NCBI GenBank assembly: GCA_900095875.1
Contig: LT608311.1
Location: forward strand, 992,001-1,056,000
DNA: 64,000 bases
Reading direction: 5' to 3'
Source of the DNA: Caecibacter massiliensis
GTDB lineage: Bacteria > Bacillota > Negativicutes > Veillonellales > Megasphaeraceae
Shown here: positions 37,617 through 49,487 of the stretch, in pieces
Layout: the number at the start of each line of letters is the position of its first letter
Numbering within the stretch: position 1 is the first letter of the stretch
Notes under the pieces: generated by a model
The model's database searches: none
What the model was told of the DNA's origin: nothing
Seen by the model: only the letters and a program-made list of their open reading frames with translations
Position numbers and translations under genes: made by a program

Positions 37617-38804
37617 TTACAGGTATCCGGCAGCCTGACCGGCCAGTTTGGTGCGGACAATGCGCGTCACTTTTTCATCGACGAGTCTGCGGAAGGATTC
37701 GTCGTTTTCATAGGCTTTTAACAGGCCGGCATAGGTTTCCTGTTCATGGCCGTAGTCGTGGCAGACGAGGACGATGTCGGCACCGGCCCGGATGGCCATG
37801 ACGCCCATGTCGGAGAAGGCATAGTGTTTGGCCATAGCTCCCATTTCCATGTCATCGGACAGGATGAGGCCTTCATAGCCGAACTGCTGGCGCAGCAGGC
37901 CCGTCATGACCGGCTGGGATACACAGGCCGGAAGTTGTGGATCGAGGGCCGTAAAGGTGACGTTGGACACCATGATGAACATCTTATCGTGGGGTACCTG
38001 TCTGATGAGGTCAGAAAAAGGCTTCATATCAGCTGTCAACAGTTCTTCCCGGCTGGCAGCGACCTGGTCTCCGTCGAGATGGGGATCGGTCCGGACCTTT
38101 CCGATACCGGGAAAGTGTTTGAGAGAACACCAGATCTTCGCCTCTTCATAGCCTTGTACAGCCTGCAGGGCAAAGGCAGTGACGACGGCAGGATCTCTGC
38201 TGTACGACCGTTCTGACGCAGAACCGAGATCGACGACGGGGGCAAAATTCAGATTAAATCCCAGTTCCTTCAGCTTTTTCCCCGTCGTCAGGGCCCATGT
38301 CCGGGCCGCTGCGGGGTCGTCATTTTCTCCCAGCTGCTGTTCACTGGGCACGCGGGGAAAGGCCTCGCGCATGCGCAGGACAAATCCTCCTTCCTGATCG
38401 ACGGCAATAAAGGGAGGTATATCCTGGCTCTGCCGGCGTATCTGCCGTGCCAGGGCCGCATTCAGGTCTTTTACCTGCTGCGTCGACTGCATATTGCGGT
38501 CAAAGAGGATGACATTTCCCATGTGGTACTGGGCGATCTGGTAGGCCGCATCCTGATCGACCGTCGTCCCCTGGATACCGATCATCATGAGCTGTCCCAC
38601 CCGCTGCTGGGGGCTCATGGACCGGACCTTGTCCCTTGCCTGTTCATCCAGAGTCGATACAGTCCCCGTCCGGCCCGACGCTGCCGCCGTTCCATCCGTA
38701 CGGGAACGGCTCTGCCAAATCCATGCGGCAGCTCCTAGGACTACTATGACGAGTAAGACGATGATACTATATATGAATTTACTGTGCCTGTTCTTGTTCT
38801 TCAT
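37617..38804 (-). CDS. nagZ: Glycoside hydrolase family 3 beta-N-acetylhexosaminidase (NagZ-like), membrane-anchored
   Basis: A 395-residue GH3 enzyme with one N-terminal membrane helix (about residues 11-30). It contains KHFPGIGKVRTDPHLDG (about residue 228), the NagZ signature loop holding the catalytic His, and LILSDDMEMGAM with the nucleophile Asp. It should release GlcNAc from muropeptides or other beta-GlcNAc glycans at the outer face of the membrane. The GHG of canonical KHFPGHG is GIG here, but the His in DPH is kept. Its start overlaps the nagA end by 26 bp, feeding GlcNAc into NagA. Confidence 0.88.
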   Translation of the reverse strand: MKNKNRHSKFIYSIIVLLVIVVLGAAAWIWQSRSRTDGTAAASGRTGTVSTLDEQARDKVRSMSPQQRVGQLMMIGIQGTTVDQDAAYQIAQYHMGNVILFDRNMQSTQQVKDLNAALARQIRRQSQDIPPFIAVDQEGGFVLRMREAFPRVPSEQQLGENDDPAAARTWALTTGKKLKELGFNLNFAPVVDLGSASERSYSRDPAVVTAFALQAVQGYEEAKIWCSLKHFPGIGKVRTDPHLDGDQVAASREELLTADMKPFSDLIRQVPHDKMFIMVSNVTFTALDPQLPACVSQPVMTGLLRQQFGYEGLILSDDMEMGAMAKHYAFSDMGVMAIRAGADIVLVCHDYGHEQETYAGLLKAYENDESFRRLVDEKVTRIVRTKLAGQAAGYL

Positions 38805-39942
38805 TGTATACTAGTTCGCCACCTACCAGCGTCTGTTTGACGTGGAAATCCGTACTATCCAGAATCGCTATATCGGCCAGTTTGCCCTTTTCCAGAGACC
38901 CGATCCGGTCGTATACGCCCAGATCCTTTGCAGGGTTCACTGTCGCCATGGCCACGGCTTCGGGAAGGGGGGCACCACTGTTGATAAGGAAATTCAGAAC
39001 GACCTGATTCATAGCGGCAATACTGCCGGCCAGTGTGCCATCTTCCAGGCGGGCTTCCCCGTTTTTCACGAATACTTTCTGGCCGCCCAGTTCCGATTCT
39101 CCATCGGGCAGCAGGCAGGCCCGCAGCGAATCGGTAATAAGGATGATGCCATCCCGGCCTTTCATGCGGTACACCAGCTTCTGTGCCGCCGGATGGACGT
39201 GGAGATTATCGCAGATGAGCTCGCAGTGGGCTTTCGGGTCCAGCAGGGCGGCCCCGACGATGCCCGGCCGGCGGTGGTGGAGCGGCGTCATGGCATTATA
39301 CATATGGGTAATGTGATAGAACTGGCACTTTTCCATGCATTCCATGACCTGTTCATACGTCGCGCCGCTGTGGCCGACGGAGACGATGATATGATGGTCG
39401 GCGCACTCTTTCAGGAAGGTCTTGTCCTTTAGCGTTTCCGGCGCCAGGGTGATGATTTTTACCACGTCTTCATATGGTTCAATCCAGGAAAAATCAGCCC
39501 GTGCTATATTCGATTCCTTCTGAGCCCCTTTGTAAGCCGTGCTGATGAACGGTCCTTCCATATGGGCTCCCAGGATCCGGGCGCCGCGGTTCTTCTTCGC
39601 CCTGCGGATACGGCCGAGGGCCCGTTCGATGCGAGGCCGGTCGTAGGTCATGGTCGTCGGCAGGAAGGACGTCACCCCCGTCTTCGGCAGCACCGACTGG
39701 ATCGTCGCCAGCGACTCCTCATTTTCATCCATTGTGTCGGCACCGGCACAGCCGTGGATGTGTTCATTGATGAAACCCGGCACGACAAAGCCGCCGTTGG
39801 CATCAATGAGGTCAGTGCACATGCCCAGATGAAATCCCTTACGGGGTACGATATCGGCAATCGTGTCCCCTTCGTACAACAAAATATGTCCGCCTACGAT
39901 TGCATCGGGCAGGACGATCATCCCATCTATAATCGCTTTCAT
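38779..39942 (-). CDS. nagA: N-acetylglucosamine-6-phosphate deacetylase NagA
   Basis: A 387-residue amidohydrolase that converts GlcNAc-6-P to glucosamine-6-P. Visible motifs are VVPGFINEHIHGCAGAD, GAHMEGPFIS (Glu metal ligand), SVGHSGATYEQ, ITHMYNAMTPLHHRRPGIVGAAL and LITDSLRA (catalytic Asp). Start at 39942 after GGAG 8 bp upstream; the longer form to 39990 lacks support. Divergent from the nan operon; likely shares control by NanR. The GlcNAc-6-P comes from NanE. Confidence 0.95.
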   Translation of the reverse strand: MKAIIDGMIVLPDAIVGGHILLYEGDTIADIVPRKGFHLGMCTDLIDANGGFVVPGFINEHIHGCAGADTMDENEESLATIQSVLPKTGVTSFLPTTMTYDRPRIERALGRIRRAKKNRGARILGAHMEGPFISTAYKGAQKESNIARADFSWIEPYEDVVKIITLAPETLKDKTFLKECADHHIIVSVGHSGATYEQVMECMEKCQFYHITHMYNAMTPLHHRRPGIVGAALLDPKAHCELICDNLHVHPAAQKLVYRMKGRDGIILITDSLRACLLPDGESELGGQKVFVKNGEARLEDGTLAGSIAAMNQVVLNFLINSGAPLPEAVAMATVNPAKDLGVYDRIGSLEKGKLADIAILDSTDFHVKQTLVGGELVYNEEQEQAQ

Positions 39943-39989
39943 CGCATTCACTCCTATACTATTACTATGGCAGATACGGGTCATCTGCA

Positions 39990-40170
39990 TACCTTGTTAC
40001 AGTATATCATATGGCCCATACTTGTCATCTCTATTGTATCACCTTTTTATTTTAAAGAAAATAAATTTCATAAATTGATAGCTAGAATATTTTTATATGA
40101 AATATTATTGCATTTTTGACAGTCTGATGCTATACTTCTGGTGTAACAAATTTCATAAACTATCTGTTCA
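39990..40170. promoter_or_regulatory. Divergent nagZA / nan promoter region with repeated ATTTCATA sites
   Basis: AAATTTCATAAA occurs at 40064-40075 and again at 40148-40159, and the inverse TATGAAAT at 40096-40103. A plus-strand promoter TTGCAT (40108-40113), 17 bp, TGCTATACT (40128-40136) lies between the second and third sites. The sites are good candidates for binding by the RpiR-type NanR encoded downstream. Confidence 0.6.
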
Positions 40171-40208: not shown

Positions 40209-40874
40209 ATGCTGGAACAATTTAAAGGAAAACTCATCATTTCATGCCAGGCTCTGCCCGACGAACCGCTCCACAGCTCATTCATCATGGGCCGCATGGC
40301 TCTGGCTGCCAAACAGGCTGGTGCCGTCGGTATCCGGGCCCAGAGCACCGACGATATCCGGGAAATCAAAAAAGTGACGGGACTGCCGGTCATCGGCCTC
40401 ATCAAACGGAACTTTGACGATTCAGAAATCTACATCACCCCGACCCATCAGGAAATTGCCGAACTGCTCGATACGTCCTGTGAAATCATCGCCCTCGACG
40501 CAACGCTGCGCAAGCGCCCGGGAGATGAAAAACTGGCCGATCTGGTAGACCAGATACACGCCGGAGGCCGCCTGGCCCTGGCCGATATCTCCAACGACGC
40601 CGAAGGCCTGAACGCAGAAAAGATCGGCTTTGACTGCGTATCTACCACCATGTCCGGCTACACGCCCTATACGCCGTCCTTCGAAGGCCCGGACTACGGC
40701 CTCGTCGCCCGCATGGCCGGCCAGCTTTCCATCCCCGTCTTTGCCGAAGGCCGCATCAACACGCCGGAAGACCTCCGACGGGTCTACGAATGCGGCGCCT
40801 ACGGTGCCATCGTCGGCTCGGCTATTACCCGTCCCCAGCTGATTGCCAAAAAATTTGTCGATATTTTAAAGTAA
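40209..40874 (+). CDS. nanE: N-acetylmannosamine-6-phosphate 2-epimerase NanE
   Basis: A 221-residue TIM-barrel epimerase converting ManNAc-6-P to GlcNAc-6-P. The family sequence is plain: KLIISCQALPDEPLHSS at the start, GLIKRNFDDSEIYITPT, ALDATLRKRP, and GRINTPEDLRRVYECGAYGAIVGSAITRP. First gene of the plus-strand nan operon, with AAGGAGG 8 bp upstream. Confidence 0.96.
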   Translation: MLEQFKGKLIISCQALPDEPLHSSFIMGRMALAAKQAGAVGIRAQSTDDIREIKKVTGLPVIGLIKRNFDDSEIYITPTHQEIAELLDTSCEIIALDATLRKRPGDEKLADLVDQIHAGGRLALADISNDAEGLNAEKIGFDCVSTTMSGYTPYTPSFEGPDYGLVARMAGQLSIPVFAEGRINTPEDLRRVYECGAYGAIVGSAITRPQLIAKKFVDILK

Positions 40875-40920
40875 ATCATATATAAACCTATATTACACGC
40901 ACTACCGAGGAGGATGCATT

Positions 40921-41802
40921 ATGTCACAGAGAGATTTAAAAGGATTGTTTTCCGCACTGCTCGTTTCCTTTGATGAACAGGGAAATATCAATGAAAAAGG
41001 CCTGCGCCAGATTATCCGCTACAACATCGACGTCAACCACATGGACGGCCTGTATGTAGGCGGCAGCACGGGAGAAAACTTCATGCTGTCTACGGACGAA
41101 AAGAAACGCATTTTTGAAATCGCCAAAGATGAAGCCAAAGATTCCCTGACCCTCATCGCCCAGGTCGGCTCGGTCAACCTGAAGGAATCGGTCGAACTGG
41201 CAAAATTCGTCACCGACTTAGGCTACGATGCCATCAGCGCCGTCACGCCGTTCTATTATAAATTTACCTTCGATGAAATCAAGAACTATTACAACACCAT
41301 CATCGGTGCCGTCGATAACCGCATGATCATCTATTCCATTCCCTTCCTGACCGGCGTTGATATGAGCCTGAGCCAGTTCGGCGAACTCTTCTCCAATCCG
41401 AAAATCGTCGGCGTCAAATTCACCCAGGCTGACTTCTATCTCCTGGAACGCATACGCAAGACCTTCCCGGATAAACTGATTTATGCCGGGTTTGACGAAA
41501 TGCTCCTGCCGGCCACGGTCCTCGGCGTCGATGGCGCCATCGGCTCTACGTACAACATCAATGGACGCCGCGGCCGTCAGATCTTTGAACTGGCAAAAGC
41601 ACAAAAAATCACGGAAGCACTGGAAGTACAGCACGTCACCAACGACCTCATTACGGACATCCTCGACAACGGCCTCTATGGCACGATCAAGCTGCTCCTC
41701 CAGGAAGCCGGCGTCGATGCAGGCTACTGCCGTGAACCCATGAAGAAATATACCCCGGAAATGGTAGCACGGGCCAAAGAAATCTATAAGAAATATTTCT
41801 AA
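40921..41802 (+). CDS. nanA: N-acetylneuraminate lyase NanA
   Basis: A 293-residue aldolase that splits sialic acid into ManNAc and pyruvate. Motifs are VGGSTGENFMLS (pyruvate carboxylate binding), the YSIPFLTG tyrosine near residue 137, and the Schiff-base lysine in GVKFTQADFY near residue 165. It follows nanE by 46 bp. An intercistronic hairpin downstream may lower expression of the later genes. Confidence 0.96.
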   Translation: MSQRDLKGLFSALLVSFDEQGNINEKGLRQIIRYNIDVNHMDGLYVGGSTGENFMLSTDEKKRIFEIAKDEAKDSLTLIAQVGSVNLKESVELAKFVTDLGYDAISAVTPFYYKFTFDEIKNYYNTIIGAVDNRMIIYSIPFLTGVDMSLSQFGELFSNPKIVGVKFTQADFYLLERIRKTFPDKLIYAGFDEMLLPATVLGVDGAIGSTYNINGRRGRQIFELAKAQKITEALEVQHVTNDLITDILDNGLYGTIKLLLQEAGVDAGYCREPMKKYTPEMVARAKEIYKKYF

Positions 41803-41839
41803 TGTTCTGATTCCACTCACTCCCGTTTCCATTGCAGAT

Positions 41840-41868
41840 AAGCGCCGGAAACATCTGGCGCTTTTTCT
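41840..41868 (+). terminator. Intercistronic hairpin between nanA and the symporter gene
   Basis: AAGCGCC (41840-41846) pairs with GGCGCTT (41857-41863) and is followed by T5. It probably gives partial termination within the operon. Confidence 0.65.
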
Positions 41869-41902
41869 GTATCCGGGACCTAGTTTAAAGGAGGACACCC
41901 CT

Positions 41903-43387
41903 ATGCACGAAGGATTTACCTGGATCGATACCGTTGTTTTAGTCTTATACCTGTTAGGCGTCCTGCTGGCCGGCCTCTATTTCTCCAAGAAGGAAATGAA
42001 AGGCAAGGAATTCTTCAAGGGCGACGGCACTATCCCCTGGTGGGTCACCTGCGTCTCCATCTTCGCCACCCTTCTCAGCCCGATTTCCTTCTTGTCCCTG
42101 CCGGGCAATTCCTATAAAGGATCGTGGATCCTCTGGTGGGCCCAGCTGGGCATGCTCATCGCCATCCCGCTGACCATCAAGTACTTCCTGCCCATCTACA
42201 GCCGTCTGGAAATCGACACGGCCTACCATTATCTGCAGAAGCGCTTTGAAAGCAAAAACCTCCGCATCCTGGGGGCTGCCATGTTCATCATCTACCAGCT
42301 GGGCCGCATGTCCATCATCATGTACCTGCCGTCCATCGCCCTGGCAGAACTGACCGGCATCGATGTCAATATCCTGATCGTCGTCATGGGCGTCATCGCC
42401 ATCATTTATTCCTATTCCGGCGGACTGAAAGCCGTCCTCTACACCGACTTCATCCAGGGCATGGTCCTCATCTTTGGCATCGCCCTGACGCTGGTCGTCA
42501 TGATCGGCGACATCCACGGCGGATTCGGCACCATCATGGATACGCTGACGACAGGCCACAAATTCATGTTCCAGAATGAAGTATGGATGAGCCCGGATAT
42601 CATTTCGACCAGTGTCTTCATCGTCTTCATCGGCGGCGGCCTGGCCACCTTTGCCTCGTACGTCTCCAGTCAGGATATCGTACAGCGGTTCACGACGACG
42701 ACGGATATCAAGCAGCTGAACAAAATGACTCTCGGCAACGGCGTTCTGTCCATTTTCGCCGCCACTGTATTTTACCTCGTCGGCACCAGCCTCTACGTTT
42801 TCTATCAGCAGAACCCGGACCTGCTCATGACCAGCCGTCAGGATCTGGTATTTGCCAGCTATATTACGTATGAACTGCCGGCAGGCGTTACGGGCATCCT
42901 CCTGGCCGCTATTTACGCCGCTTCCCAGTCCACTTTGTCTACGGGCATCAATTCCGTCGCTACCAGCTGGGTCCTCGACATCCAGTCCGTCCTCAACCCG
43001 GATCTGGACAGCCGGAAGCAGACGCGCATCGCCAAGCTCGTCTCCCTGGGCATCGGCATCCTGTCCATCATCGTCGCCATGGTCATGGCCGTCAGCGATA
43101 TCCACTCGGCCTACGAATGGTTCAACAGCTTCATCGGCCTGGCCCTGGGCTCACTGGCCGGCATGTTCGTCCTGGGAGCCTTCAGCAAACACGCCAACAC
43201 CAAAGGCGCGTTCGTCGGCTTTATCTGTTCCACTGCCGTCGTCATGTATCTGAAATACTTCGTCCCTTCCGTCTCGTTCTGGTCCTATACGGCTATCACC
43301 ATCATCCTTTCTCTGGTAGTCGGTACCATCGTCAGCCGTCTGACGGGCAAAGACTATACGGCACCGGAAGGAACGACAGCCGATTAA
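41903..43387 (+). CDS. Sodium:solute symporter, probable sialic acid transporter
   Basis: A 494-residue SSS-family carrier of about 13 helices. WWVTCVSIFATLLSPISFLSLPG near residue 45, SYSGGLKAVLYTDFIQG near residue 170 and SQSTLSTGINSVATSW (Na2-site region) are typical. It most likely imports N-acetylneuraminate with Na+, since it sits between nanA and nanQ in a complete sialic-acid operon and no TRAP or ABC sialate system is present there. Start at 41903 follows AAAGGAGG. Confidence 0.88.
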   Translation: MHEGFTWIDTVVLVLYLLGVLLAGLYFSKKEMKGKEFFKGDGTIPWWVTCVSIFATLLSPISFLSLPGNSYKGSWILWWAQLGMLIAIPLTIKYFLPIYSRLEIDTAYHYLQKRFESKNLRILGAAMFIIYQLGRMSIIMYLPSIALAELTGIDVNILIVVMGVIAIIYSYSGGLKAVLYTDFIQGMVLIFGIALTLVVMIGDIHGGFGTIMDTLTTGHKFMFQNEVWMSPDIISTSVFIVFIGGGLATFASYVSSQDIVQRFTTTTDIKQLNKMTLGNGVLSIFAATVFYLVGTSLYVFYQQNPDLLMTSRQDLVFASYITYELPAGVTGILLAAIYAASQSTLSTGINSVATSWVLDIQSVLNPDLDSRKQTRIAKLVSLGIGILSIIVAMVMAVSDIHSAYEWFNSFIGLALGSLAGMFVLGAFSKHANTKGAFVGFICSTAVVMYLKYFVPSVSFWSYTAITIILSLVVGTIVSRLTGKDYTAPEGTTAD

Positions 43388-43406
43388 TCGTAAAGGAGCC
43401 ACTCGT

Positions 43407-43856
43407 ATGATATATGGAAATATCCACCAAAAAGAAACGTATGCCTTTTTACCGGTACCGGTACAGCGCTGTCTGGACCTGGCCCGCAGCAGCGGATTTG
43501 CTTCTCTGACGCCGGGCAGCCATCCCATCGACGGCGATTCCCTGTTCGTCAATGTCGCAGCCTATACGACGGGACCGGAAGAAACGCGCAGCTGGGAAGC
43601 CCACAAAGACTACCTCGATATCCACGTCCTCAGCGAAGGGGAAGAATACATCGACCTCGGCTTCATCGAATCCATGACCTGCGGTGCCTATCACAAAGAC
43701 AGCGACTATCAGGAAGTGACCGGTACGGCCCGGGCCCGCGTTCTCATGCGTCCCGGCGATTTTCTCATCTGTTATCGCGAAGATGCCCATAAACCTGGCA
43801 TTGCTGCCGGTGAACCGGCTCCGCTCAAAAAGGGAATTTTTAAAGTCCGTATCTGA
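43407..43856 (+). CDS. nanQ: YhcH/NanQ family protein
   Basis: A 149-residue cupin-like protein of the YhcH/YjgK/YiaL family. The conserved TTGPEETRSWEAHKDYLDIHVLSEGEEYIDLG region and the FLICYREDAHKPGIA tail are visible. Family members including NanQ of E. coli open or isomerise sialic acid forms. It follows the symporter gene by 19 bp and precedes nanM. Confidence 0.9.
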   Translation: MIYGNIHQKETYAFLPVPVQRCLDLARSSGFASLTPGSHPIDGDSLFVNVAAYTTGPEETRSWEAHKDYLDIHVLSEGEEYIDLGFIESMTCGAYHKDSDYQEVTGTARARVLMRPGDFLICYREDAHKPGIAAGEPAPLKKGIFKVRI

Positions 43857-43881
43857 TTTGACATCTCCAAGGAGGTATCGT

Positions 43882-45018
43882 ATGATGAAAAAAAGTGTAA
43901 TTGCTGCAACCGTACTGGCCCTGACCCTCTCGACATCCCTGTCTTTTGCCGCACCAGAACAGACCGGCTCCCCGCAGATCCGCTGGCAGTCGGCCGGTAC
44001 GTTGTCCCCGGCAGTGGGCCAGACAGAAAATATCGGCGTTGCCGGCATGATAGCCGGTACCAGCCATGGCTATATCATCGCCGGTGGCGGTGCCAATTTC
44101 CCCAACGGCGGGCCCGCAGTGGGTGGTGCCAAAGTGACCTATCCTGATATCTACGCCATGAAGGCGACGGACAAAGGCCTCATCGAAACAGACCATCAGG
44201 TCCTGCCCTTCCCGGCAGCCTATGGCGCGTCGGTCACAGCCGCTGACGGCGTCTATTACATCGGCGGCAGCCCCGATACGACTGCTGCCAAAGCCATTAC
44301 ACGCCTTACCTGCGACGATCAGGGAAAACTGCACTACCAGACAGCCGGCACCCTGCCCTTCACCTTCCAGAACGGCATTGCCGCCCGGAATGGCCAGACC
44401 CTCTTCCTGGGACTGGGAAAACAAGACGGCAGCCTGAGCCGCAATTTCTACGCCTATGACCTTAAAACGGGAGCACTGGAACGGCTGGCCGATTTCCCCG
44501 GAAAGGCCCGTGAACAGAGCGTTGCCCAGCTGCTGGGCCAGACGCTGTGCGTCTTCAGCGGTGGCAGCGATACGGCCTATACGGACGGATACGGCTATGA
44601 CCTGAAGACCCACACCTGGCACAAACTCGCCGATGCCGCCATAGACGGCCAGGGAATCTCCCTCCTGGGAGCCCGGGCCGTACGCCTGAATGAAGACGAA
44701 ATGCTGGTCATCGGCGGCTTCAATAAAGCCATCTATGACGATGCCGTCGCCCATCTGTCCCATCTTACGGGCGCAGAACTCACTGCCTATAAAACGGCTT
44801 ACTTTGGCAGGGAAAGCACCGATTTCAACTGGAACCGCCACATCCTCGTCTACAACGTCCGCAGCGACAGCTGGCGCTCTGCCGGAGAGATTCCCTTTGC
44901 GGCTCCCTGCGGTGAAGGGCTGGTGCTCCTGAAAGATAAAATCATTTCCCTCAATGGGGAAATCAAACCCGGTGTACGCAGCAACCGCATCTATGAAGGA
45001 TTCATCATGAAAGAATAG
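43882..45018 (+). CDS. nanM: N-acetylneuraminate epimerase NanM, exported
   Basis: A 378-residue Kelch beta-propeller with a signal peptide (residues 1-23, ending LSFAA). It interconverts alpha- and beta-sialic acid outside the cytoplasm before uptake. Repeats such as YIIAGGGANFPNG, YYIGGSPDTTAAK, LCVFSGGSDTAYTDGYGYDLKTHTW and MLVIGGFNKAIYDD mark the blades. The start at 43882 is chosen because CAAGGAGG lies just upstream and the signal begins there. A periplasmic location is consistent with a diderm cell. Confidence 0.92.
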   Translation: MMKKSVIAATVLALTLSTSLSFAAPEQTGSPQIRWQSAGTLSPAVGQTENIGVAGMIAGTSHGYIIAGGGANFPNGGPAVGGAKVTYPDIYAMKATDKGLIETDHQVLPFPAAYGASVTAADGVYYIGGSPDTTAAKAITRLTCDDQGKLHYQTAGTLPFTFQNGIAARNGQTLFLGLGKQDGSLSRNFYAYDLKTGALERLADFPGKAREQSVAQLLGQTLCVFSGGSDTAYTDGYGYDLKTHTWHKLADAAIDGQGISLLGARAVRLNEDEMLVIGGFNKAIYDDAVAHLSHLTGAELTAYKTAYFGRESTDFNWNRHILVYNVRSDSWRSAGEIPFAAPCGEGLVLLKDKIISLNGEIKPGVRSNRIYEGFIMKE

Positions 45019-45027
45019 GAGAAACCC

Positions 45028-45918
45028 ATGTATATATGCATTGACATTGGCGGCACGGCCATCAAATACGGACTGGCTTCTGCCGACGGCCAGCTGATAG
45101 AAACGAAGAGCACGCCCACCCACGCCCATGAAGGCGGCGGACCGGGCATCGTCCGCACGGTCCGCCGGCTGATCCGCCAGTACAAGGAAAGAGGACCACT
45201 GTCGGGCATCGCCCTTTCTACAGCCGGCATGGTCGATCCCCAGAAAGGACGGATTTTCTATGCCCTGGCCGATTCCATCCCCGATTATACAGGAACGGAA
45301 TGGAAAGAAATGCTGGAAGAGGAATTCCATATTCCCTGTGCCGTAGAAAACGATGTCAACTGTGCCGCCCTGGGCGAACTCTGGCTCGGTGCCGGAAAGG
45401 GCTGTGCGTCGGCCTTTATGATGACCATCGGCACCAGTATCGGCGGCTGTGCCATCTATGACGGCCATATTCTCCACGGCGCCGGCTGCAGTGCCGGAGA
45501 AATCGCCTATATGCGTGTGCCCGGCGGCCGGCTCCACGACCTGGCATCAGCCACCCGTTTGATCCGCGATGTCGCCACGGCCAAAGGCGTCAGACCGGAC
45601 GAACTGGATGGCCGGGCCGTATTTGCCATGGCCGCCGACGGCGACACCGATGCCATCGGTGCCATTGACGCCTTATCCCGTGACATAGCCGTCGCCATCG
45701 GCAATGTCATTACCGTACTGCAGCCCCAGGTCGTCATCCTGGGCGGCGGCATCATGGCCCAGGAAGGCGTATTCCGCCCGCTCCTGGAACAGTACGTATC
45801 ACAACAGCTGCCACCCGCCATGTACGGACCGACCCGCATCGCCTTTGCCCGCCTGGGCAATACGGCCGGCATGCTGGGAGCGCTCTATCATCTCCGTCAG
45901 ACCCTTTCGCAGGAGTAA
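45028..45918 (+). CDS. nanK: ROK-family N-acetylmannosamine kinase NanK
   Basis: A 296-residue ROK sugar kinase that phosphorylates ManNAc. ATP site YICIDIGGTAIKYGLA at the N-terminus, NDVNCAALGELWLGAGKG (about residue 105), and the GHILHGAGCSAGEIAYM segment are clear. The canonical ROK zinc motif (CxCGxxGC) is absent: this region reads RVPGGRLHDLAS, as in several zinc-free ROK kinases. Directly follows nanM by 9 bp. Confidence 0.9.
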   Translation: MYICIDIGGTAIKYGLASADGQLIETKSTPTHAHEGGGPGIVRTVRRLIRQYKERGPLSGIALSTAGMVDPQKGRIFYALADSIPDYTGTEWKEMLEEEFHIPCAVENDVNCAALGELWLGAGKGCASAFMMTIGTSIGGCAIYDGHILHGAGCSAGEIAYMRVPGGRLHDLASATRLIRDVATAKGVRPDELDGRAVFAMAADGDTDAIGAIDALSRDIAVAIGNVITVLQPQVVILGGGIMAQEGVFRPLLEQYVSQQLPPAMYGPTRIAFARLGNTAGMLGALYHLRQTLSQE

Positions 45919-45923
45919 CGCCT

Positions 45924-46778
45924 ATGAATATCTTGGAACAGCTGGACCATCCCGGCTTCAAACCCTCAAAATCCGACCGTACCCTCATGGAATACATCCG
46001 CCTCCACGGCGACCTGTTCTGCACGACGCCCATCGCCAGTCTGGCCAAAAAGAGCGGCATCAGCGAATCGACCATCACCCGCTTCGTGCGCAAGATGGGC
46101 TTTCAGAGCCTGCAGCATTTCAAGCTCAGCCTGGCAGAAGAATTGTCCCGGCGCAGCCAGCAGAAAACCATCATCAGCCACAATATCGCCGCCGACGAAT
46201 CCATCATGACGACGGCCAAAAAGCTCATGTCCATTGGCATGGATACGCTCCGCCAGACCGTAGAGACCCTCGATGAAGAGGTCATCGCCCAGACGGTCCG
46301 CCTGCTGACGGGCGGACACCGCGTGTATTTCATCGGCCTGGGAAATTCCGGATTCGTTGCCGACGATTCGGCGTACAAATTCCAGCGCATCGGCATCGAG
46401 GCTCTGGGCCTGGACAACAGCCATCTCATCATGCTGCACATGGCCCTCATCCAGCCGGGCGACGTCGTCATCGCCATCAGCCATTCCGGCGCCTCAAAGG
46501 AAATCGTCCAGGCAGCCCGCCTGGCCAAGCAGAACGGCGTCCGCCTGATTGCCATCACGGCCAATAGCGGTTCCGAGCTCCGGGACTGCGCCGATTTGTG
46601 CATTTCTTACCGCACGCGGGAAACGATGCTGGAAACGGGCTCTATCGTCACCAAGCTGACCCAGGTATTTATCATCGATTTAATCTATACACAGGTCGTC
46701 AAAGAACGGCCCGAAACATCCGTGAAGAATAAGCAGCGGACAGCGGACGCCGTCAATCTGCTGCGTCTCGGACACTAA
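45924..46778 (+). CDS. nanR: RpiR-family transcriptional regulator NanR
   Basis: A 284-residue regulator with an N-terminal RpiR helix-turn-helix (residues 1-75, PIASLAKKSGISESTITRFVRKMGF) and a SIS phosphosugar-binding domain (about residues 110-260, YFIGLGNSGFVADDSAYKFQRIG, ISHSGASKEIVQAA). It likely senses ManNAc-6-P or GlcN-6-P and controls the surrounding nag/nan genes through the ATTTCATA sites at 40064-40159. Five bp after nanK. Confidence 0.9.
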   Translation: MNILEQLDHPGFKPSKSDRTLMEYIRLHGDLFCTTPIASLAKKSGISESTITRFVRKMGFQSLQHFKLSLAEELSRRSQQKTIISHNIAADESIMTTAKKLMSIGMDTLRQTVETLDEEVIAQTVRLLTGGHRVYFIGLGNSGFVADDSAYKFQRIGIEALGLDNSHLIMLHMALIQPGDVVIAISHSGASKEIVQAARLAKQNGVRLIAITANSGSELRDCADLCISYRTRETMLETGSIVTKLTQVFIIDLIYTQVVKERPETSVKNKQRTADAVNLLRLGH

Positions 46779-46801
46779 GCATACTCTAAAAGGAGGCACG
46801 T

Positions 46802-47560
46802 ATGATGCGTGTTATCGTTACTAATTCTTATGATGAAATGAGTACAGAAGCCGCCAAAATCGTGGCCGGCCAGATATACCTCAAGCCGGACAGCGTCCTC
46901 GGCCTGGCCACGGGCAGCACGCCCCTGTCGATGTATAAAAAACTGATTGCCGTCCATGAAATGATCGGCCTCGACTTTTCCCAGGTCACGACATTCAACC
47001 TGGATGAATACATCGGCATGGCGCCGGACAATCCCCAGAGCTATCATTACTTCATGCATCATAATTTCTTCGATTTCATCAACATAAAGCCGGAAAACAT
47101 TTACATTCCCGACGGTATGGCAAAAGATATCGTAGCCGAAGGCAAGCGCTACGATGCCCTCATCGAAGCGAAAGGCGGCATCGACCTGCAGATTCTCGGC
47201 ATCGGTCAGAATGCCCACATCGGCTTCAACGAACCGGACATCAAATTCGAAGCGACGACCCACAAAGTCCGCCTCGATGAAGAAACCATCCAGGCCAATT
47301 CCCGCTTCTTCCAGACGGAAGAAGAAGTTCCCCGCTACGCCATCAGCATGGGCATCAAAACCATCATGCTGGCCAAAAAAGTCGTACTCCTGGCCAATGG
47401 CCGCAATAAAGCCGAAGCCATCTACAATACGGTCTGCGGCAGCATCAGCCCCAGTGCCCCGGCCAGCATTCTCCAGCTGCACCGCGACGCAACGGTCATT
47501 GTGGACAAAGAAGCGGCATCGCTCCTGCCGGACCGGGTTTGTGACAAAATTTGTGGATAA
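46802..47560 (+). CDS. nagB: Glucosamine-6-phosphate deaminase NagB
   Basis: A 252-residue isomerase/deaminase converting GlcN-6-P to fructose-6-P and ammonia, the exit of the pathway into glycolysis. [26 protein letters not shown] (catalytic Asp), [14 protein letters not shown] and [17 protein letters not shown] are all present. AAAGGAGG precedes the ATG at 46802; the next codon is also ATG. The last codons and stop (TTTGTGGATAA) coincide with a perfect DnaA box. Confidence 0.96.
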
Positions 47561-47901
47561 ATCCCTTTGCTATTCTCTTCTGGCGAGGTATTCCCCTGCA
47601 TGTGTACACATGTCTTTAGGGAAATGCCCCGCTTTTTCTATATGGTGTTATCCACAAATCCACAGAGGTTGTACACAGAAATCAGGGGAGCTTGTAAAAT
47701 ATGTAAAATCCGCATAGTTATCGCATTTATCGCGATTTTTTTCCTTATCTTGAACACATGTTCCCCATGAGTTATCCACAATCTGGCTAAAAAAAGGAAA
47801 AATATATCCACCGCCGTCAGGGCCTGTAAACAGGCATTCTCCGGCTATATCCACAGGGTAACAGAAGTTATGCACAATACGTGTGTATACTTTGTGGATA
47901 A
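47552..47901. other. Cluster of DnaA boxes
   Basis: Perfect TTATCCACA boxes occur at 47552-47560 (minus orientation), 47648-47656 (plus), 47772-47780 (plus) and 47893-47901 (minus). A TTATGCACA box is at 47868-47876. Near matches are ATATCCACA at 47848-47856 and AAATCCACA at 47657-47664. The stretch is otherwise gene-free between convergent nagB and a 97-aa gene. It lacks dnaA or dnaN nearby, so a DnaA-binding (titration or reactivation) locus is more likely than the main origin. Confidence 0.7.
47599..47612. repeat. Perfect 14-bp palindrome
   Basis: CATGTGTACACATG, within the DnaA-box region. A partial outer pairing (ATTCCC with GGGAAAT) surrounds it, giving a larger stem followed by GCTTTTT. 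It may be the nagB terminator, or a dimeric-protein site. Confidence 0.45.
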
Positions 47902-47920
47902 CTTTTATTTGCCTATGCAC

Positions 47921-47965
47921 AAAAAAAACCGTACCTCTGTGGGGATATCCACCGGAAGGTACGGT
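47921..47965 (-). terminator. Terminator of the 97-aa gene
   Basis: ACCGTACCT (47928-47936) pairs with AGGTACGGT (47957-47965), and the minus strand continues with eight T residues (47928-47921). Confidence 0.88.
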
Positions 47966-47995
47966 CTCTTCAGATGAGTCTGATGTCGTTTTCCA

Positions 47996-48289
47996 TTACA
48001 CTTCTTCGACGGGGCGGCTCCAGTCGATATGCACGCCCAGAGCCAGCCATATATAGCCCAGGGCCAGCTTCAGCGTATCCAGACTGTCCGTCGCCGCCGC
48101 TGTAATCGTTTCGTACTGGGACAGGGTGACATAGCGGTGCCACGAAAGGACCGTCGTCAGGAACGAATAGGTTTCCTTTTCCTTTTCTGCATCATTCAGA
48201 TGAACTGTAAGCTTTTTTGTTTCCGCATCATACTGGATATAACCGTTATTGTTATCACCCGTATGAACTGCTACTGTAAATACTGCCAT
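47996..48289 (-). CDS. Hypothetical protein, 97 residues
   Basis: Not recognised. It is a soluble-looking alpha/beta protein. The first half is strand-rich (FTVAVHTGDNNNGYIQY, TKKLTVHL) and the second half helical with aromatic residues (VLSWHRYVTLSQYE, GYIWLALGVHIDW). No signal peptide or cysteine is present. The GGAGAT ribosome site, a dedicated terminator, and codon use like its neighbours support it as real. It sits between the DnaA-box cluster and dinB, 22 bp after the dinB stop would allow, in the same direction as dinB. Confidence 0.75.
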   Translation of the reverse strand: MAVFTVAVHTGDNNNGYIQYDAETKKLTVHLNDAEKEKETYSFLTTVLSWHRYVTLSQYETITAAATDSLDTLKLALGYIWLALGVHIDWSRPVEEV

Positions 48290-48311
48290 ACGTAAATCTC
48301 CTTATCTGTAT

Positions 48312-49487
48312 CTATTTATCGTGGGACATTTCCCAGAGAAATCCTTTCATGAGCGCCTTGCGGCCAAAGCGCTGCTGCAGTTTGTCGATGGCTTCCGTGA
48401 CTTTGGCCTGCGTCTCTTCGTCGTCAGAAAATAAATCACTCTGCACCTGATAAGGCTGGAGCTGGCTGACCGACAGTCCCAGGAGCCGTATGGGGCCGTT
48501 TTTTCCCTTTTTATGATAGAGCCGTTTGGCGGCGAAATACAACTGTTCCTCCGAACAGGTCCCGATTGTCTCCAGCGTCAGGGACCGGGTCACCGTCTCA
48601 AAGGAAGAAAACCGCACTTTAATCGTAATCGTACGGCCCATGAGGTGATTCTGACGCAGCCGCCAGGCCACTTCATTGGCCAGGAGACGGAACTGTTCGT
48701 CAATGTCTTCTTCCCTCGTCAGGTCGTGCTCATACGTATGCTCGTTGCCGACCGACTGGGGTCGGCGGCTCACTTCCAGCTGACGGTTGTCCCTGCCACA
48801 GGCCAGTTCATACAAGCGGTGTGCCTGCCGCCCGGCAATGGGGACCAGGGCATCGGGCCCGGCCTGTATGATATCGCCGATGGTATGGAACCCGGCTTTT
48901 TCCAGCTGGCCTGCCGTCACCCGGCCGACGCCCCAGAGGCGTGAAACGGGAAGGGGGGCCAGGATTTCCTGCTCCTTGCCGTAGGGAATCCACATCAGGC
49001 CGTCGGGCTTTTTCAGATCCGACGCCAGCTTGGCCAGGAATTTATTGGGCGCGATGCCGGCCGACGCCACAAGGCCGGTGATGCGCAGGATATCGTCCTT
49101 GACGGCCCGGCCGATATCGACGATGTCCGGGTACTGGAGATTCATGCCAGAAACATCCAGGAAGGCTTCGTCCAGCGCCAGCGGTTCGATAAAGGGCGAA
49201 TAGTGCGATAAAATGAGGCGGATCTGATGGGAGATGCGCCGGTAATGGGCCATGCGCACGGGAAGGAATATGCCGGACGGACAAAGGCGCCGGGCCTGGC
49301 GGGTGCTCATGGCCGAATGGACGCCGAACCGCCGGGCCTCATAGGACGCCGTCGCCACGACACCCCGTTCGCCCAGCCCCCCGACGATGACGGGATGGCC
49401 GCGCAGAGCCGGATTATCCCGCTGTTCGACAGAAGCATAAAAAGCATCCATATCTACGTGCATGATCCAGCGCCTTGCCAATGTCAT
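48312..49487 (-). CDS. dinB: DNA polymerase IV (Y-family)
   Basis: A 391-residue translesion polymerase. MHVDMDAFYASVEQRDNPALRG (catalytic Asp), the steric gate region, DEAFLDVSGMN (catalytic Asp-Glu), and WGVGRVTAGQLEKAGFHTIGDI (HhH) are clear, with the little-finger domain at the C-terminus. The exact start is uncertain: ATG 49487 sits right after GGGAGGG; TTG 49481 has better spacing; an upstream start to 49526 is possible. No LexA (GAAC-N4-GTTC) box was seen upstream. Confidence 0.93.
   Translation of the reverse strand: MTLARRWIMHVDMDAFYASVEQRDNPALRGHPVIVGGLGERGVVATASYEARRFGVHSAMSTRQARRLCPSGIFLPVRMAHYRRISHQIRLILSHYSPFIEPLALDEAFLDVSGMNLQYPDIVDIGRAVKDDILRITGLVASAGIAPNKFLAKLASDLKKPDGLMWIPYGKEQEILAPLPVSRLWGVGRVTAGQLEKAGFHTIGDIIQAGPDALVPIAGRQAHRLYELACGRDNRQLEVSRRPQSVGNEHTYEHDLTREEDIDEQFRLLANEVAWRLRQNHLMGRTITIKVRFSSFETVTRSLTLETIGTCSEEQLYFAAKRLYHKKGKNGPIRLLGLSVSQLQPYQVQSDLFSDDEETQAKVTEAIDKLQQRFGRKALMKGFLWEMSHDK

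Follow-up and report, generated by a model that had tools for sequence, protein, structure and literature searches.

A conserved, origin-proximal cluster of DnaA boxes in Caecibacter massiliensis and other Negativicutes: a candidate element of DnaA control

What is a dense cluster of DnaA boxes doing far from dnaA, at the very end of an amino-sugar gene? This question is raised by a 64-kb stretch of the Caecibacter massiliensis chromosome (hereafter the window; C2:992001-1056000 in a genome of two contigs and 2.65 Mb). The original prediction, made from the letters of the window, took the cluster for a titration or reactivation locus of the datA/DARS kind rather than an origin. Herein, we describe the boxes, compare them with the rest of the genome and with relatives, and weigh what they may do.

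The cluster comprises nine boxes within 370 bp, namely five exact TTATNCACA boxes and four with one mismatch, and both strands are used. From the nagB side onward, they are the following.

47552..47560, minus strand: DnaA box TTATCCACA (motif match), the outermost; its plus-strand reading gives the last two codons and the stop of nagB (TGT GGA TAA)
47648..47656, plus strand: DnaA box TTATCCACA (motif match), with an aligned box in most of nine aligned relatives
47669..47677, plus strand: one-mismatch DnaA box TTGTACACA, 21 bp from the 47648 box; the 21-bp pair recurs in several family members
47772..47780, plus strand: DnaA box TTATCCACA, box D of the conserved layout, 75 bp from box C
47847..47855, plus strand: one-mismatch DnaA box ATATCCACA, box C, 35 bp from box B (mismatch scan and family alignment)
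47868..47876, plus strand: DnaA box TTATGCACA, head-to-head with box B, 14 bp start to start and 5 bp between the boxes
47882..47890, minus strand: one-mismatch DnaA box GTATACACA, box B, 11 bp from box A
47893..47901, minus strand: DnaA box TTATCCACA, box A (motif match)
47913..47921, plus strand: one-mismatch DnaA box CTATGCACA (mismatch scan)

The four TTATCCACA boxes, the TTATGCACA box, and the overlap with the nagB stop are thus as originally described, and the near-consensus boxes mentioned there are the four with one mismatch. The description of the DNA as gene-free is right for the spacer and wrong for the nagB end.

Is this density special? The whole window holds six TTATNCACA boxes against 1.39 expected from shuffles, a count reached in none of 100 shuffles. 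As background we used nineteen 5-kb stretches and the remainder of the window, all from the same genome, where 111 boxes (at most one mismatch) in 159,018 bp amount to 0.31 per 450 bp. An equal density in other spacers, which had been named as a ground for doubt, was not found, and only the dnaA region is comparable. The densest 450 bp of the background carries five boxes (L035, 140 kb); we rejected it as a second box-rich place, as none of them is an exact TTATNCACA. Genome-wide, there are 27 TTATCCACA and 60 TTATNCACA matches versus 10 and 41 for the reversed-pattern control, and more than two TTATNCACA boxes within about 2 kb occur at two places only in the 2.65-Mb genome, the cluster (five) and the dnaA region (eight). 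Box enrichment is local, not genome-wide. A head-to-head pair pattern was matched in 18 of 60 genomes (its control in three), and since several of these matches adjoin dnaA, we restricted its use to the cluster and oriC of the own genome. A search for RNA elements across 46700-48700 gave no Rfam match at gathering scores.

A dense cluster with both opposed and tandem DnaA boxes is also what a secondary or former replication origin might look like. The genome has a single dnaA match (C2:1231771-1233387), which dnaN and rnpA adjoin (read by eye) together with the eight TTATNCACA boxes, and it lies 193 kb, or 7.3% of the chromosome, from the cluster; the predicted lack of dnaA and dnaN nearby is therefore correct. 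GC skew, taken from the nineteen 5-kb samples, is below zero in each of the nine that precede 1.231 Mb and above zero in each of the ten that follow, turning within the dnaA region (C2:1.231-1.233 Mb), and no sustained change was seen across the window. Because the skew flips at dnaA, the cluster is not the origin, in line with the original prediction. The marks of oriC that we looked for, a GC-skew switch and linkage to dnaA and dnaN, are both missing at the cluster, and we hold a secondary or former origin to be extremely improbable.

The next question is whether the boxes serve the genes around them. The features that matter here are listed below.

38779-39990, minus strand: nagA of the window genome (NCBIfam TIGR00221), on the far side of the sialic-acid/amino-sugar block
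40209-47560, plus strand: sialic-acid/amino-sugar block (nanE, nanA, sodium:solute symporter, YhcH-type, NanM-type epimerase, ROK kinase, RpiR regulator, nagB)
46802..47560, plus strand: nagB (NCBIfam TIGR00502), with its stop codon inside the outermost box
47923..47970, minus strand: probable intrinsic terminator for the 97-aa gene, separating it from the core (RNA fold of 47915-47980)
47996..48289, minus strand: gene for a 97-aa protein, a landmark beside the element, found in 221 of 252 class genomes (search with protein alignment)

Judged by these comparisons, the neighbourhood seems young and the boxes old. Beyond the cluster, nine family relatives carry nagA in the direction of dinB and the 97-aa gene (in addition, G010 shows a partial match resembling nagA), and other family relatives carry a BrnQ-type (branched-chain amino acid) transporter (four) or a LysR regulator (two). 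nagB has no match at E <= 0.001 in any of the 59 relatives (the own genome being the one in 60), so the block looks acquired. Among the matches listed, the closest nagB (88%) comes from a Selenomonadaceae MAG, and the nearest listed ones belong to other families, with very near genomes possibly omitted. An insertion of the block (of which nagB alone was searched in relatives) appears to have separated nagA from the cluster, and this would be why nagB now ends inside the outermost box.

Both the nagB overlap and the convergent genes thus look like local accidents, specific to the window genome among those compared. The overlap consequently loses the evidential value that it had been given. The convergence of the genes and of the rpl operon on the cluster is correct as a fact and carries no weight as evidence, because the gene beyond the cluster differs in relatives and convergent transcription is not shared by them. 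The rpl genes themselves (rplL, rplJ, and rplK by Pfam; rplA by eye), together with nusG (by eye), occupy the minus strand at 57.4-60.4 kb and point at the cluster, which is not odd since forks arriving from oriC on the right travel in the same direction.

On the other side, transcription leaving the 97-aa gene would meet a strong hairpin (-28 kcal/mol, z -5.65) and eight consecutive U, so that the core is probably shielded from that side; the hairpin on the nagB side (47720-47736, z -1.2) is weak and unconvincing. For comparison, a passage of PMC5010248 states that DARS loci lose their activity on transcription through them. The 97-aa gene occurs in 43 of the 60 genomes (own included); in the class set of 252, it has no match in any of the 14 genomes of f2 and f3. 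Its protein has a DWSR motif that is invariant in 14 aligned sequences, no Pfam, NCBIfam, PADLOC, or significant PDB sequence match, and a fold model (pLDDT 88.6) that matches nothing in the PDB at E <= 0.001. With no family or fold match, we claim no role for it.

These neighbours bear on the idea that DnaA acts here as a transcription factor, for nagA in the relatives or for the 97-aa or dinB genes. Several B. subtilis genes are indeed regulated by DnaA, according to the part of PMC4447404 on this topic, and in G006 about 60 bp separate the end of the last box from the start codon of nagA. However, the gene beyond the element varies by lineage and has been displaced in the window genome, and the boxes persist all the same; they are independent of any one neighbouring gene. 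In addition, the element lies 3' of the 97-aa gene, with the strong hairpin between them in the window genome, and in f11, f18 (G122), and f21 a similar core adjoins other genes (neighbours read by eye). Regulation of a neighbour is therefore an improbable explanation.

How well the boxes are kept can be judged within the window's own family. In each of the 16 same-family relatives, the roughly 400 bp 3' of the 97-aa gene contain two or more exact boxes, in support of the predicted DnaA-box locus outside the origin. The count of boxes with at most one mismatch exceeds all 200 shuffles in 16 of 16 family genomes (own included; G014 outside the test), and the count of exact boxes does so in 15 of 16, with a tie in G007. 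Between G000 and nine aligned relatives, identity is 0.75-0.89 inside boxes and 0.36-0.41 outside, a measure that covers 10 of the 16 family genomes loaded and in which the in-box values are inflated by a partly box-driven alignment. The prediction had also counted a lack of conservation as a point against itself; the relatives have kept the boxes while their spacers diverged. Searching the spacer against the 60 genomes by blastn returned the own locus and two short stray matches and nothing else, so homology rests on the boxes and their layout.

This layout, read by eye, consists of two plus boxes 11 bp apart and a minus box 14, 24, or 34-35 bp further on, followed by another minus box after mostly 72-78 bp (the C-D spacing). 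The opposed pair is spaced by 14 bp in six of the 17 family genomes (own included), by 24, 34, or 35 bp in nine, and by neither in G005 and G010, which fit the layout poorly. Several family relatives also have an outer box 323-394 bp past the 97-aa gene, on the same strand relative to the gene as the 47552 box.

Outside the family, the picture is both wider and more regular. In f4, the second family with the gene in that order, arrays of exact or one-mismatch boxes follow the gene in six genomes of g7, four of g11, and one of g13 (two further g11 loci are interrupted by contig ends), often in 11-12-bp steps; some of the g7 arrays lack an exact box. In g5, by contrast, none of the 13 genomes examined has an exact box in the 1.3 kb or so around the 97-aa gene. 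Class-wide, the core consists of box A, 3 bp, box B, 13 bp, and an inverted box C (A-12-B-22-C; A+, B+, C-). Its strict outer pair, TTATCCACA-N25-TGTGGATAA, is matched in 44 of 252 class genomes (46 loci) and not in the other 208, and the reversed pattern is matched in 0 of 252. Box B (at most one mismatch) sits at exactly +12 in 39 of the 46 loci and in at most two at any other offset; the remaining loci have a two-mismatch box B (two) or none (five, all f21).

By coordinates, 27 of the 46 strict-pair loci lie less than 2.5 kb from the 97-aa gene. Conversely, among 40 loci of that gene hand-picked from the best matches, the core was found in 21, that is, in 21 of 23 outside f5 and f21; within about 1.5 kb of the gene it is absent from all 14 f21 and all three f5 loci sampled. 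G106 and G114 miss the core at the 97-aa gene, and G114 has one about 8.5 kb away. The window's own family does not show the strict class pattern (0 of 11 f1 genomes searched), and its apparent relatedness to the class core is based on position and on similar, not identical, spacing.

In a sample of the phylum outside the Negativicutes (17 class members set aside before counting), the A-C pair occurs in nine of 381 genomes (11 loci), with box B at +12 in only one of the 11 and a third box at other offsets elsewhere (e.g., +20 in five and +9 in four). Allowing one mismatch, 11 of 16 named genomes have the core: Pelosinus fermentans JBW45, another Pelosinus, Lucifera butyrica, Sporomusa malonica, a Sporomusaceae MAG, two Pectinatus, two Propionispira, a Megamonas MAG, and a Selenomonas bovis MAG. 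At the same stringency, it was not found in a Selenomonas ruminantium MAG, a Selenomonadaceae MAG, Alkaliphilus, Tepidibacter, and Clostridium tunisiense. Some genomes have two or more cores (by the strict pair, G112 and G115). The second cores of these two (L182 and L185, respectively) lie between genes for a PLP-dependent decarboxylase and a DegS-like kinase (by eye). The two Propionispira genomes (G646 and G647) have four cores each, one exact and three with one mismatch, of which two stand in tandem about 157 bp apart.

Several lineages have lost or moved the element, as one might expect of a chance pile-up or a functionless relic. That explanation is very unlikely, given box counts above every shuffle in 16 of 16 family genomes, boxes that are conserved next to diverged spacers, and an exact box B offset in 39 of 46 loci across the class.

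The distance from the core to the next box is regular as well. Of the 40 exact minus-strand boxes found 30-130 bp after C, 32 lie at 53-56, 63-65, or 73-79 bp, and the other eight (87, 90, or 101 bp) fall off these main steps; outside the own family, the C-D spacing is most often 73-79 bp. For 25 family-unique values, the Rayleigh R is 0.55 at a 10.5-bp period (nominal p about 6e-4); over the periods of 10 to 11 that we examined, R ranges from 0.43 to 0.66, and taking unique values removes relatedness only in part. A periodicity of about 10.5 bp would be expected if DnaA formed a looped or wrapped complex on one face of the helix.

All 23 measurable loci (22 genomes) lie 0.6-11.4% of the chromosome from dnaA (median 6.3%), although draft genomes bias these distances short and nine genomes (10 loci) are in a single contig or nearly so. 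For multi-contig genomes, a rounded size or the contig's own length stood for chromosome size. Of 21 genomes with the core, dnaA and the core are on different contigs in G112 and G166, and G247 was left out; among the 17 family genomes, dnaA and the element are on different contigs in ten, and G008 has no dnaA match. Part of the distance conservation is plain synteny. Relocated or second cores are found at 5.8% (G110), 7.1% (G165), and 7.9% (G115b, in G115) from dnaA. In three f4 genomes (G023, G051, and G054), just 12-18 kb separates dnaA from the 97-aa gene and its box array. The single-contig chromosome of G115 (G115:C1) was opened inside dnaA, whose match is therefore split across both ends of the record.

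Which known DnaA-control locus does the element resemble most? The DnaA-box clusters (DBC) of B. subtilis, reportedly described by Okumura et al. in 2012 and known to us through citing papers, are likewise said to lie outside oriC, to be origin-proximal, and to restrain early initiation. The window cluster has the same traits of location, with several boxes in a few hundred bp outside oriC at 7.3% of the chromosome; the difference is that B. subtilis has six clusters, whereas here there is one, with a related fixed core in many class genomes. A near-oriC DnaA-box cluster of Streptomyces coelicolor (Smulczyk-Krawczyszyn et al., 2006) is also said to repress untimely initiation; it belongs to another phylum and is likened here by its description. 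In the relevant passage of PMC5010248, the B. subtilis clusters and datA restrain initiation and become less effective after a move to the terminus. One passage of PMC5295017 also ascribes restraint to the B. subtilis clusters, and others in the same paper play such clusters down.

E. coli datA is given at 94.7 min and oriC at 84.6 min, about 10 min apart, in a passage of PMC5742627; this is some 10% of the chromosome, compared with 7.3% for the window element. Like the latter, datA is a non-coding DnaA-box cluster, and its binding sites are conserved while the spacers vary, as stated in part of PMC4585315. Its essential boxes, however, point in one direction and work with an IHF site (PMC5742627, same passage), whereas the window boxes face both ways and the IHF consensus TAANNNNTTGATW (at most one mismatch) has no match inside 47552-47921, its count across the window being that of chance.

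DARS offers the closest likeness in orientation. A DARS core has two tandem boxes and one opposed box, according to the passage on its topology in PMC5742627, and so have the window (47868+, 47882-, and 47893-, box I being opposed to II and III) and the class core (A+, B+, C-). Measured on MG1655, the cores of E. coli DARS1 and DARS2 have 14 bp to the opposed box and then 12 bp to the third; the window has 14 and 11 bp. A DARS-like locus, whose core would hold ADP-DnaA head-to-head, promote nucleotide exchange, and stimulate initiation, could also account for the genomes with at least two cores (G112, G115, and the two Propionispira with four each). Critically, though, the class-wide spacing is 22 and 12 bp, which leaves 8 bp more between the opposed boxes than in DARS, and the 14-bp pair is limited to six of 17 family genomes. 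The Negativicutes element is also near oriC, in contrast to DARS1 and DARS2, for which the part of PMC5010248 on position gives relative distances of 0.33 and 0.21. Hence, we regard a DARS-like stimulator as unlikely. The original datA/DARS comparison holds in part: position and probable role are like those of datA and the B. subtilis clusters, core orientation is like that of DARS, and the class-wide spacing differs.

Taken on balance, the cluster is probably a conserved, oriC-proximal, non-coding DnaA-binding element that restrains re-initiation in the manner of the B. subtilis clusters or datA. DnaA would be expected to occupy the strong boxes and to form a cooperative assembly on the core, in which two tandem boxes face an inverted one; the distance to a further box is most often some seven helical turns. 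Since replication reaches the locus shortly after initiation, the second copy should draw off DnaA (or inactivate it) and thereby restrain re-initiation at oriC; the effect of a single locus may be weak. Position and conservation favour such restraint, by binding or inactivating DnaA, and the DARS-like topology keeps reactivation in play. A more specific version, which we put forward tentatively, is that the Negativicutes have an element with an architecture of its own (box, 3 bp, box, 13 bp, inverted box, and a box at a helical step) that builds a defined DnaA complex and so changes the state or availability of DnaA, as an independently evolved counterpart of datA and DARS.

It is in E. coli that non-coding DnaA-control loci of fixed architecture have been worked out. 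According to a 2026 review (PMC13220808), datA and DARS are missing from B. subtilis, and it is not known whether this species has regulators that balance the nucleotide state of DnaA. In the literature consulted (subscription papers and preprints aside, and in part for the papers covered), we found no such DnaA-box locus described for Negativicutes, Veillonella, Selenomonas, or Megasphaera. Here, a spacing-conserved element is present in many genomes of this class of diderm Firmicutes, near oriC wherever it could be placed, and its pattern suggests that a conserved set of boxes helps control the timing of chromosome copying. It thus provides a concrete short sequence with which to ask whether structured DnaA-control loci arose more than once.
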